Of a stretch of DNA of 64,000 bases, positions 53,832 through 59,980 are shown in pieces. Both the position numbers and the translations under genes were made by a program. Location: positions 806,001 through 870,000 of the forward strand of contig NZ_CP044065.1 of NCBI RefSeq assembly GCF_008693385.1. The letters run 5' to 3'. A model generated the notes under the pieces. The model saw only the letters and a list, made by a program, of their open reading frames with translations. It searched no databases and had not been told where the DNA came from. This DNA comes from Cupriavidus pauculus. GTDB lineage: Bacteria; Pseudomonadota; Gammaproteobacteria; Burkholderiales; Burkholderiaceae. The first letter of the stretch is position 1. Each line of letters begins with the position of its first letter.

Positions 53832-55283
53832 TTACAGTTTCTTCATCAGCACCATCGACTTGCGCTGCCAGTTGTACAGCTTGCGCTTGTCCTCGGGCAG
53901 GTCGTCCACGGTGGCATGGACGAAGCCACGCTTGAGGAACCAGTGTTCGGTACGCGTGGTGAGCACGAACAGGCGCTCGAGACCCAGCGCGCGGGCGCGG
54001 CGCTCGATGCGCTTGAGCAGGCGCTCGCCGTCGCCGGTGCCCTGGGCTTCGGAGGACACGGTCAGGCATGCCATCTCGCCCATGTTCTCGCGCGGGAATT
54101 CGTACAGCGCCGCGCAGCCGAACAGCACGCCATCGTGCTCGATGACCGAGAAGTTGCCGATATCGCGTTCGATCAGGTGGCGGCCGCGCGGTACCAGCGT
54201 GCCGTCCGCTTCCAGCGGCGCGATCAGTTGCAGGATGCCGCCGACGTCGTCGAGCGTCGCTTCGCGCAGGCTCTCGAGGTCGGAGTCGGAGATCATCGTG
54301 CCCACGCCGTCGTGCAGGAACAGTTCCAGCAGCACCGAGCCGTCCTGCGCGAACGGGATCAGGTGCGCGCGGGGCACGCCGCCCTTGAGCGCCTTGACCA
54401 GATGCTGGAGGTAATAGGCGACGTCGGGCGGCAGATGGTTGTTCTGGAGCCGTTCGACGGCCGTGCGCAGCGACATCTCGGGCATCAGCTTGCCGACGGG
54501 GTCGGGCACGCCGGGCACCTCGGTGATGAAGATCAGCTTGTCGGCGCGGAGCGCGCTTGCGGTGGCGCTGGCCACGTCTTCCATCGAGAGGTTGAACGCC
54601 TGGCCGGTGGGGGAGAAGCCCAGCGGGGAGAGCAGGACGACCTTGCCGTGGGACAGCGACATGCGCATCGATTCGCCGTCTACCTTGCGGACGAGGCCCG
54701 TGTGCTGGTAGTCGACGCCGTTGACGATGCCGACGGGGCGCGCGGTGATGAAGTTGCCGGAGATCACCGAGAGTTGGGCACCGGCCATCGGCGTGTTCGG
54801 CAGGCCCTGGCTGAAGGCGGCTTCGATGTCGAGCCGCAGTTCGCCGGCGGCTTCCTTCGCGCATTCGAGCGCGGCGTTGTCGGTAATGCGCACGCCATCG
54901 GCGTAGCGCGACTCTACGTGGCGCAGCGCGAGTTGCTCCTCGACCTGGGGGCGAGAGCCGAACACGAGCACGATCTGCATGCCCATGGCGTGGAGCAGGG
55001 CTACATCGTTGACGAGCGCGGTCAGCACGCCGGCCTTGACCAGTTCGCCGCTGAAGGCGATGACGAAGGTCTTGCCGCGGAACGAGTGGATGTAGGGCGC
55101 TACGGCGCGGAGCCAGTCGACGAATTGCTGGCGGTCGGGGCCGGAGGCGTCGGTATCGGCGCTGGCGGCCGATGACGGGATCGGCGTCGCGGGCGCGCTC
55201 ACGGGCAATACGGGGGACAGCGCGGCGGGGGGCTCTGCGGGGGGCTCCGCTGCGTCGGGGGATGTGTCGGTTCGTGCGTTCAT
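53832..55283 (-). CDS. argA: Amino-acid N-acetyltransferase (N-acetylglutamate synthase)
   Basis: 483 aa, longer than E. coli ArgA (443) because of a Pro/Ala/Ser/Asp N-terminal segment of about 45 residues before [20 protein letters not shown]. The amino-acid kinase-like domain contains [15 protein letters not shown] and [16 protein letters not shown] (arginine regulation); the GNAT domain at the C-terminus has [20 protein letters not shown] and WFLKRGF. It starts arginine synthesis by acetylating glutamate. The ATG at 55283 is 23 bp from the divergent hrpA ATG, and a symmetric ATTATAAT element lies in that gap. Confidence 0.95.
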
Positions 55284-55290
55284 GCGGCGG

Positions 55291-55298
55291 ATTATAAT
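55291..55298. promoter_or_regulatory. Symmetric -10 element shared by argA and hrpA
   Basis: GATTATAATC is palindromic. On plus, TATAAT (55293-55298) is 8 nt before the hrpA ATG at 55307; on minus, TATAAT (55296-55291) is 7 nt before the argA ATG at 55283. Both starts would be leaderless or nearly so. The 23-bp gap has room for nothing else. Confidence 0.6.
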
Positions 55299-55306
55299 CC
55301 CCGCCA

Positions 55307-58300
55307 ATGTCAGCACAACGTCCTGCCCAGCCTCCCGGCAAGCCATCGCAGCCCGGCGGCAAGCCTACTCCTCGAACGACCCGCGAATCGGTGCCCGCGC
55401 CGGGGCAAGGGAACGCGCCTCGCAATGCGCCCGAACGGCCGCCGGGGCCGTCCCGCCCGGCACAATCGCCGCCCGCCGCAGGCGCACCGCGCCCGTCCCA
55501 CGACGGCGAACCCACGCGCGATGGGCAATCCGCCCGCGACGCCCGCCCGCCACGCGAAGGCCAGTCCGCGCGCGATGGGCAGTCCGCCCGCGACGCTCGC
55601 CCGCCACGCGAAGGCCAGCCCACACCCGATGGGCAGTCCGCCCACGACGGTCGTCCGCCACGAGAAGGCCAGCCTGCGCGCGATGGGCAGTCCGCCCGCG
55701 ACGGTCGTCCGGCCCGAGAGGGGCAGCCCGCACGTCAGGCGCAGTCGGCTCGCGAGGGGCAGTCGGCCGATGGCGGCCGTTCGGCACGAGAGGGGCAGGC
55801 CGCGCGTGAGGCCCAGTCGGCCCGCGACGGTCGTCCGGCGCGAGACGGGCAGCCCGTGCGCGAGGGGCAGTCCGCCGATGGCGGTCGTCCGGCGCGAGAC
55901 GGGCAGCCCGTGCGCGAGGGGCAGTCGGCCGATGGCGGCCGTCCGGCGCGAGAGGGGCAGGCCGCGCTAGAGGCGCAGTCCACCGACGGCGGTCGTCCGG
56001 CGCGGGACGGGCAGCCCGTGCGCGATGGGCGGTCGGCCGACGGCGGTCGTCCGGCGCGAGGCGGGCAGTTGGGGCGTGAGGCGCAGCCGGGGCGCGAGGC
56101 GCAGTCGGGGCGTGAGCCGTCGGCCGGGCGCGACGGTCGGCCCCCGCGGCCGCCGCGGATGGCGAACCCATTGCCGCCCATCACATTCCCGGAAGCGCTA
56201 CCGGTTTCGGCGCGCCGCGACGAGATCGCCGCCGCGCTGCTGGCCAACCAGGTCGTGATCGTCGCCGGCGAGACCGGCTCGGGCAAGACCACACAGTTGC
56301 CCAAGATCTGCCTGTCGATCGGCCGCGGCCCCGTGCGCGCCGGCGACCCCCCGGGCAAGACCGGCGGCCTCATCGGCCACACCCAGCCCCGCCGGATCGC
56401 GGCCACCTCCACCGCCAAGCGCATCGCGCAGGAACTCGGCTCGCCAGTCGGCGAGCACGTCGGCTACCAGGTGCGCTTCAACGACACGATGTCCCCCGGC
56501 GCGTCCATCAAGCTGATGACCGACGGCATCCTGCTGGCGGAGACGCAGAACGACCCGCTGCTGCGCGCATACGACACGATCATCATCGACGAGGCCCACG
56601 AACGCAGCCTCAACATCGACTTCCTGATCGGCTACCTGCGCCAGATCCTGCCGAAGCGTCCCGACCTCAAGATCATCATCACCTCGGCGACGATCGACGC
56701 GAAACGCTTCGCCGAGCATTTCGCGCACAACGGCAAGCCCGCGCCGGTCATCGAGGTCAGCGGCCGCCTGTATCCGGTGGAGGTGCGTTACCGCCCGATC
56801 CGGGAGGACGCCGCGCCCAACGGGAGCACGCCCCCGACGCCGAAATCCGCACAGGCGAAGGAGCGCGACCTCTACGACGGCATCGTCGATGCCGTCGACG
56901 AACTGTGCCGCCTGGGCCCGGGCGACGTGCTCGTATTCCTGCCCGGCGAGCGCGAGATCCGCGAAACCGCCGAGGCGCTGCGCAAGCACCACCCGCCCCA
57001 CACCGAGATCCTGCCGCTGTTTGCAAGACTGTCCGTGCAGGAGCAGGAGCGCGTGTTCAAGCCCTCGGGCGCGCGCCGCATCGTGCTGGCCACGAACGTC
57101 GCCGAGACCTCGCTCACGGTGCCCGGCATCCGCTACGTGGTGGACACGGGCCTCGCGCGCGTCAAGCGCTATTCGTACCGCAACAAGGTCGAGCAACTGC
57201 AGATCGAAGCCATCTCGCAGGCCGCGGCCAACCAGCGCGCGGGCCGCTGCGGCCGCGTGGCGGACGGCGTCTGCATCCGCCTGTACGAAGAGAGCGACTT
57301 CGCGGGCCGCCCGCGCTTCACCGATCCGGAAATCCTGCGCTCGTCGCTCGCGGCCGTCATCCTGCGCATGAAGGCGCTGCGGCTCACGGACATCGAGTCG
57401 TTCCCGTTCATCGAGCCGCCGCTGGGCCGCGCGGTGGCCGACGGCTACCAGCTGCTCCAGGAACTCGGCGCCGTCGATGACGCGAACCAGCTGACCGCCA
57501 CGGGCCGCCAGCTGGCCAAGCTGCCGCTCGACCCGCGCGTGGCGCGCATGATCCTGGCCGCGCGCGAGCAGCATTGCCTGCGCGAAGTGCTGATCATCGC
57601 GAGCGCGCTGTCCGTGCAGGACCCGCGCGACCGTCCGCAGGAGGCGCAGGAAGCCGCCGATCAGGCCCACCGCAAGTTCTTCGACGACCGGTCCGACCTC
57701 CCTTCGGAATTCCTCGGCTGGGTCAAGCTGTGGAAGTGGTTCGAGGACGCCGTCGCGCACAAGAAGAGCAACAAGCAGTTGCAGGACCAGTGCCGCGCCA
57801 ACTTCCTTTCGCATCTGCGGCTGCGCGAATGGCGCGACGTCCATTCGCAGCTGATGACGACGGTGACGGAGCAGGGCTGGCGCCTCAACGAGAGCGAGCC
57901 CACGTACGAGCAGGTGCACAAGGCGCTGCTGACGGGCCTGCTCGGCAATATCGGCTGCAAGCTGGACGAAGGCGATTCGCGCGGGCGCGAGTATCTTGGC
58001 GCGCGCGGCATCAAGTTCCACCTGTGGCCGGGCTCGCTGATCGCGAAGAAGGTCGGCCGCTGGATCATCGCGGCCGAGCTCGTCGAGACGAGCCGCCTGT
58101 TCGCGCGCACGCTCGCGCGCATCGAGCCCGAATGGCTGGAACAGGTGGGCAAGCATCTGCTGAAGGTCAGCTGGAGCGATCCGCACTGGGAGAAGAAGGC
58201 CGGCCAGGTGCTCGCGCTCGAGCGCGCCACGCTGTACGGACTCGTCGTCTACCAGCACCGGCGCATCCACTACGGGCCGATGAACCCGGCGGAAGCGCGC

Positions 58301-59980
58301 GAGCTATTTATCCGGCGCGCCCTCGTGGAAGGGGAGTTCGACACGCGGCTGCCGTTCTACGCGCATAACCAGCGGCTCGTGCGAGAGATCGAGAACCTCG
58401 AGCACAAGTCGCGCCGGCAGGACGTGCTGGTCGATGACGAACTGATCTACGCGTTCTACGACCGCGCGGTGCCGGCCGACATCTACAACCAGGTGTCGTT
58501 CGAAAAGTGGTACGAAGCCGAGTCCGGGAAGGATCGCAAGCTGCTGTACCTGAACCGCGACGAGCTGATGCGGCACGAGGCCGCCGGCATCACCACGGAC
58601 CTCTTCCCGAAGACGATGGCGGTCGCGGGCGTGGACATGGGGCTCACCTACCATTTCGAGCCCGGCAGCCATCGCGACGGCGTGACGCTGACCGTGCCGC
58701 TGTACGCATTGAACCAGGTACGTCCCGAGCGCGCGGAATGGCTCGTGCCCGGCATGATCAAGGAGAAGGTGCATCTGCTGCTGAAGTCGCTGCCGCAGAA
58801 GCTGCGCCGCCATTGCGTGCCACTGCCCGACTATGCGGCGGGCTTCGTCGCGCGCCAGCCCTTCGGCGAGGGCGATCTGCTCGACGTGCTCATTGCCGAT
58901 ATCCGCGAACAGACGGGCACGATGATCAAGCGCGCGGACTTCAAGCTGGAAACGCTGCCCGCGCACCATGCGATGAACTTCAAGGTCATCGACGAACACG
59001 GCCGCCAGCTCGACATGGGCCGCAACCTCGCGCAATTGCGCGCGGAGTTCGGCGGGCAGGCGCAGCAGTCGTTCCAGACCATCGCGGCGCGGGATGTGCC
59101 GGCGGCCGAAGCCGGCCAGTACGAGAACCTCACGTCATGGTCGTTCGGGGAACTGCCGGAACTGCTCGAGATCCGCAAGGGCAGCCAGACGCTGTTCGGC
59201 TACCCCGCGCTCGTCGATCACGGCGATCATTGCGACGTCGAGGTTTTCGACGATCCGCAGGAGGCCGCGCGCGTTCACCATGCGGGCCTGCGCCGGCTGT
59301 TCGCGCTGCAGCTGCGCGAGCAGGTCAAGTTCATCGAGAAGAACGTCCCGAACCTGCAGCAGATGGCCATGCAGTACATGACGCTGGGCACGCAGGAACA
59401 GTTGCGCGAGCAGATCGTGCAGGTGGCGCTGGACCGCGCGTGCCTGCAGGCGCCGCTGCCGCGCAACGAGGCCGAGTTCAACACGCGCAAGGACGAGGGG
59501 CGCGCGCGGCTGTCGCTGCTCGCGCAGGAAATCGCGCGGCTCGTCGGCAGCATCCTGGCCGAGTACGCGGGCCTGCCGCGCAAGCTGCTGCAGGCCAAGC
59601 CGTATGGCGCTACCTATCAGGACATGGAGGCGCAGCTCGGGCGATTGATGCACAAATCGTTCGTCATCGATACGCCGTACACGCAGCTCGTGCACTATCC
59701 GCGCTACCTGAAAGGCATGGCGATGCGCGTTGACAAGCTCAAGGGCGATGCCGCGCGCGATGCGCAGCGGCTGCAGGAGATGACGCCGCTGATCCAGCAG
59801 TGGCAGCGCGCCGAAAAGCAGCTGCGCACGCAGGGCCGCGGCGCCGCCGACGCGCGGCTCGACGAATTCCGGTGGATGCTGGAGGAGTTGCGCATCGCAC
59901 TTTTTGCGCAGGAATTGCGAACCCCTGTGCCCATGTCGGTCAAACGACTCCAGAAGGTCTGGGAGTCCATGCAGCGCTGA
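55307..59980 (+). CDS. hrpA: HrpA-type DEAH-box RNA helicase with a long repetitive N-terminus
   Basis: 1557 aa; E. coli HrpA is about 1300, and the difference is an N-terminal segment of roughly 290 residues. Residues 65-280 are 36 hexapeptide repeats ([18 protein letters not shown] types), highly charged and disordered. The helicase core then follows: [13 protein letters not shown] (motif I, near 320), DEAHERS (motif II, near 428), [12 protein letters not shown] (motif III), [12 protein letters not shown] (motif VI), then HA2, OB and the HrpA-specific C-terminal regions. HrpA acts on mRNA and on stalled or collided ribosomes. The ATG at 55307 begins [14 protein letters not shown]; a start just before the helicase core is not visible. 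Confidence 0.95.
55499..56146 (+). repeat. 18-bp tandem repeat array in hrpA (36 units)
   Basis: 648 bp divide exactly into 36 in-frame 18-bp units encoding six residues each, such as [24 protein letters not shown] and RDGQPV. Later units show three-unit periodicity ([18 protein letters not shown] repeated), while the last few ([18 protein letters not shown]) are diverged. Confidence 0.93.

Follow-up and report, generated by a model that had tools for sequence, protein, structure and literature searches.

Bidirectional promoters of bacteria reportedly had an earlier description by Warman et al. in 2021, as papers citing that work have it. Promoters of this kind with a symmetric, shared -10 element figure in the accessible parts of a later study (Warman et al., 2026; PMC12825309) and of a Salmonella survey from 2023 (PMC10268837), so that the statement in a first-pass annotation of the DNA considered here, that shared symmetric -10 elements are known in bacteria, agrees with published work. 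In PMC12825309 the commonest distance between divergent starts was 18 bp, and distances of 10 and 23 bp were frequent as well. Leaderless genes constitute a second relevant group: 4.67% of the primary transcripts of C. metallidurans were found to be leaderless (PMC7563307), and a TA-rich motif was reported directly upstream of leaderless genes in B. cenocepacia (PMC4603805), both according to the available sections of these papers.

The gap between argA and hrpA in Cupriavidus pauculus has features of both groups. Like the promoters of Warman et al., it carries between divergent genes a perfect -10 element on each strand, the two sharing bases, and its starts, predicted from geometry to lie 23-24 bp apart, come close to the 23-bp class given in the accessible part of PMC12825309. 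Unlike those promoters, both of its starts are predicted, from sequence alone, to fall on start codons, and it has been followed over two families in which its halves were naturally lost or separated. It resembles the leaderless genes of C. metallidurans (PMC7563307) and B. cenocepacia (PMC4603805), as far as the consulted parts describe them, in having TATAAT 7-8 nt before the ATG and no room for a ribosome-binding site, but differs from them in that two such genes, argA and hrpA, diverge from a single overlapping -10 element. A search of the open-access literature brought up no paper on the promoter between argA and hrpA, and none on a bidirectional promoter that is leaderless on both sides.

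The locus appears, from its sequence, to be an unusually well-kept case of this recently described two-way kind of promoter. In the studies cited above, bidirectional promoters came to light by mapping starts in one species at a time, an approach in which the usefulness of the second direction is not visible. The argA-hrpA promoter can be traced over 191 genomes and offers natural controls, with the partner gene present, gone, or moved away together with its own half; such evolutionary evidence suggests that both directions are under selection. Closely related fused and separated promoters also provide material for testing the regulatory consequence of a shared -10 element.

The argA-hrpA gap in Cupriavidus pauculus

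The window, which is the whole 64,000-nucleotide stretch of DNA analysed, contains argA on the minus strand (53832..55283; N-acetylglutamate synthase, 483 aa) and hrpA on the plus strand (55307..59980; ATP-dependent RNA helicase, 1557 aa). Both gene names given in the first-pass annotation were borne out by NCBIfam models, argA scoring 662 bits with TIGR01890 (cut-off 203) and hrpA 1620 bits with TIGR01967 (cut-off 723); argA is 96% identical to argA of C. plantarum, the nearest named relative. As regards their description as essential-pathway genes in the first-pass annotation, hrpA is not known to be generally essential. The start codon of argA (CAT at 55281-55283) and that of hrpA (ATG at 55307-55309) enclose a gap of 23 bp (55284..55306) with a palindrome at its centre, as had been noticed at first sight.

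The frame from the argA ATG to the conserved QFVDW was kept in 38/38 same-genus genomes, where this segment has 46-78 residues and 15 different lengths, and that from the hrpA ATG to the helicase domain in 35/38, the other three ending at a contig edge; the N-terminal stretch of hrpA, from the ATG to the helicase motif, has 64-297 residues among congeners. Since the frames are kept up to conserved domains despite such variable N-terminal lengths, the two start codons are, by this comparison, correct or very nearly so. HrpA of C. pauculus starts with an extension (55307-56170) of about 285 residues that is rich in repeats and of low complexity.

An upstream start for argA was also considered and set aside. 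The open frame reaches an ATG at 55346 inside hrpA, which would give a protein of 504 aa. In one congener (L011) with a gap 1 bp longer, the TAA of the palindrome ends this frame three codons upstream of the conserved ATG, and argA is otherwise intact, which speaks against the upstream start. As the frame is open across the palindrome (55284-55346), automatic annotation may pick the wrong, upstream start.

The palindrome named in the first-pass annotation is the 10-bp GATTATAATC (55290..55299). Within it lies ATTATAAT (55291..55298), in which two -10 hexamers have TATA in common: TATAAT on the plus strand (55293..55298), the proposed -10 element of hrpA, is followed by a spacer of 8 nt up to the hrpA ATG, and TATAAT on the minus strand (55291..55296), the proposed -10 element of argA, by one of 7 nt up to the argA ATG. 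The perfect hexamers first read on both strands are thus present at the distances then given, and they overlap through their symmetry, the property by which a bidirectional promoter is recognised. On the observed sequence and spacing, as well as on the conservation described below, positions 55291-55298 are very probably the core of a bidirectional sigma-70-type promoter with two perfect -10 elements on opposite strands sharing TATA. RNA polymerase docking one way would transcribe argA and, docking the other way, hrpA; given the spacers of 7 and 8 nt, initiation at the usual distance from the hexamers would put the first nucleotide on each start codon or no more than 1-2 nt from it.

It might instead be supposed that one strand alone has a working promoter, the symmetry having arisen by accident or being a form that -10 elements habitually take in these genomes; TATAAT is itself nearly symmetric, so ATTATAAT needs just two matching bases beside it. 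The 7.06-Mb genome contains 189 copies of TATAAT on both strands, as against 120 for the reversed control, but AT precedes the hexamer in only 4/189, and these correspond to the two places where ATTATAAT occurs; the 10-mer GATTATAATC is present once. Together with the separated loci described below, this makes a one-strand promoter very unlikely. The pattern TATAATN{5,9}ATG occurs at 23 places and its reverse at 12, a weak genome-wide signal. The second genomic ATTATAAT (L166; G000 C1:2500476-2500483) does not, by eye, lie between close divergent starts.

Conservation of the core within the family and the order

The own-family sample comprised 107 genomes, 39 from the genus and 68 from other genera, the latter hand-picked to cover genera from 116 matching genomes. 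Conservation of the gap in relatives had been suggested in the first-pass annotation as a check on its proposal, and it was indeed found: among the 39 congeners scored, 38 have sequence across the gap, L014 being cut short by a contig edge, and all 38 have ATTATAAT, the gap measuring 23 bp in 37/38 and 24 bp in 1/38. The argA spacer is 7 nt in 37/38 and 8 nt in 1/38, and the hrpA spacer 8 nt in 38/38.

When hrpA lies beside argA (87 genomes of the family), a palindrome is present in 82, being ATTATAAT in 80 and the longer ATTATATAAT in two (L213 and L214, genus code g34), where both hexamers are intact. In these two genomes the ATG found 6 nt from the argA-side -10 element is out of frame with argA. 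The five genomes without a palindrome all belong to genus code g36 (L227-L231, 5/5), in which hrpA adjoins argA, yet the argA half (ATTATA) alone remains. A further 20 genomes of the family, without a detected hrpA, have the palindrome in 9 cases and not in 11, the latter consisting of 9 genomes of g45/g46, with 0.5-1 kb searched, and 2 contig ends. In L226, which has the palindrome without a detected hrpA, it does not adjoin an argA start. The hrpA spacer is 8 nt in 78/87 genomes, and the argA spacer 6 or 7 nt in 75/82 of the same-family genomes with an argA start placed 4-10 nt from TATAAT; the intervening bases vary on both sides.

The 10-mer GATTATAATC, tried as the conserved unit, was dropped, as its outer bases vary between families: across 89 same-family sequences the left one is G in 86 and the right one C in 50, and the left one is mostly C in the second family. 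As the flank alignment was anchored on ATTATAAT, only the flanks are informative in it. The unit conserved across families is, by this comparison, ATTATAAT, and its conservation indicates that the symmetry between argA and hrpA is more than chance. In an order-level sample, in which 24 other families were represented by a single genome each and 0.3-1.1 kb upstream of argA was covered, ATTATAAT was found in L039 only, and hrpA beside argA in L039, L040, and L041.

Fate of the two halves in a second family

A second family (code f8), with 84 argA-matching genomes among 89 searched, was taken for Oxalobacteraceae-like, its sequence contexts agreeing with named records (L283 resembles Massilia psychrophila, L146). 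A perfect TATAAT precedes the in-frame argA ATG by 6-9 nt in 77/84 of these genomes, with or without hrpA nearby. The seven without this argA -10 element were left out of the comparison of the 77; four of the seven have the palindrome elsewhere in the region, three of the four (g55) close to hrpA. In L292, L317, L320, and L321 the palindrome is present with no argA start close by.

Among the 77, the palindrome is intact in 54/55 genomes in which hrpA adjoins without a separate -10 element, in 0/11 in which an adjoining hrpA has its own separate perfect TATAAT, and in 1/9 with no hrpA within 1 kb; two genomes with sequence too short to class hrpA have it (2/2) and were left out of the test. The hrpA-side TATAAT likewise occurs in 54/55 genomes of the first class and otherwise in 1/20. 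The exceptions are L273, in which hrpA adjoins without its own -10 element, yet the palindrome is lost, and L244, which keeps the palindrome with no hrpA within 1 kb. The 0/11 contrast arises partly by construction, the class with a separate TATAAT being defined by non-overlap. The informative fact about these 11 genomes is that both genes keep exact hexamers at their customary spacings, 6-7 nt for argA and 9-10 nt for hrpA.

The association between palindrome and hrpA state in this family has a Fisher p of 1.4e-15, a value that ignores kinship. On a tree covering 86 of 93 rows, the state of the palindrome changes 10 times, at least 5 of these changes being required by branches with good support. 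The supported independent pairs number 5; the palindrome follows the hrpA state in 3-5 of them (mean 4.5) and opposes it in none, and tree-based independent pairs give a median p of about 0.06. The comparison supports the view that each half is kept, lost, or separated according to its neighbouring gene, and in this comparative sense each direction matters to its own gene. The earlier proposal of one symmetric -10 region for both genes gains support from the way the halves track their neighbours.

These data also bear on the supposition of a single working strand. AT precedes the hrpA TATAAT in 0/10 of the separated loci examined, at odds with a general -10 habit, and each half survives next to its own gene. 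A third possibility is that the palindrome, a perfect inverted repeat located between divergent genes, serves as the operator of some dimeric regulator, perhaps one of arginine synthesis, instead of or besides two -10 elements. An operator would be expected to belong to a regulon, whereas the 10-mer is unique in the genome, and the dyad is broken in 11 genomes of the second family, where the half sites still stand at distances specific to their start codons. Since the 10-mer is unique and the dyad breaks while its halves survive, the operator reading is given very little credence, and the bidirectional promoter is preferred.

How fused promoters came apart can be seen in two sister pairs on the tree (L260/L265 and L284/L271) that differ by an insertion inside the palindrome. 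In L265 (G214, about 1203-1474) 266 bp lie between the hexamers, its sister L260 being fused; the insert has outer inverted repeats with 31-nt arms, 84% complementary, and has the appearance of a small mobile element by which the shared TATA was duplicated. In L271 (G235, 299-791) the halves are 641 bp apart, the close relative L284 being fused, and the insert encodes a ParE-family protein together with a ribbon-helix-helix protein, two products resembling a toxin-antitoxin pair. In both cases the argA side reads ATTATA and the hrpA side TATAAT, the outcome expected of an insertion that duplicated the shared TATA.

Promoter strength, regulation and leaderless starts

The -10 element of RpoD in C. 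metallidurans is TATAAT, according to the accessible part of PMC9045368. In the hrpA direction no TTGACA-like -35 element was found 15-19 bp upstream, with no excess over control offsets in three groups: the best TTGACA match (control in brackets) was 2.05 (2.33) in the genus, 2.54 (2.57) in other same-family genomes, and 2.30 (2.84) in the second family. The argA direction showed a small excess, with 2.92 (2.71), 2.87 (2.54), and 2.88 (2.81), respectively; within the genus a TTGT.C found 16 bp upstream is conserved, but it overlaps hrpA codons. A -35 element on this side is doubtful. No two-hexamer promoter passed in a promoter scan, and the palindrome lacks the TG of an extended -10 element; either direction of the promoter could therefore be weak.

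The first-pass annotation had also predicted mutually exclusive transcription of arginine synthesis and an RNA helicase. The two -10 elements overlap by 4 bp, and by the steric argument made in the consulted part of PMC12825309 two polymerases cannot bind together. Exclusive use follows from sterics; its relevance to regulation is a prediction that found no support. Five E. coli bidirectional promoters tested in the same paper had, in the portion seen, basal activities too low to compete. The promoters are already separated in 11 of the 77 genomes of the second family with an argA -10 element, and no conserved regulator site was seen by eye in group consensus sequences. That the bidirectional promoter acts as a regulatory switch, with argA and hrpA used alternately, is accordingly quite improbable. 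A broader proposal, that a doubly leaderless shared -10 element has been selected since before the two families diverged and acts as a switch open to one polymerase at a time, tying arginine synthesis to the supply of RNA helicase, a coupling from which the separated lineages would have escaped, is unlikely.

Leaderless starts on both sides had been predicted as well, a state in which the -10 element puts +1 at the start codon. The spacers of 7 and 8 nt in C. pauculus, and of 7-8 nt in 38/38 genomes of the genus, lead us to infer 5' ends on or next to both ATGs; in Cupriavidus both mRNAs, judged by this geometry, are probably leaderless and would be translated as such. This part of the prediction is likely to hold for Cupriavidus, but the leaderless state is not universal. 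In the second family (71 hrpA genes), the hrpA ATG is 9-10 nt from TATAAT in 39 and a TTG is at 12 nt in 3, and in 29/71 no in-frame hrpA start occurs 4-12 nt from a TATAAT. The 12 genomes of g48 were called Ralstonia-type because of their identity to named records. Eleven of them have an intact palindrome, and the remaining one stops at a contig edge; an in-frame argA ATG near the palindrome was found in 0/11, with a TTG at 10 nt in one. With argA of g48 and 29/71 hrpA genes of the second family departing from it, the leaderless state is, as these sequences indicate, less constant than the shared core. In three g48 genomes inspected, argA probably begins at a GTG about 50-70 nt downstream. 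The position of the Cupriavidus-like argA ATG reads ATC in 10/11 of the g48 genomes (L069-L078 and L080).
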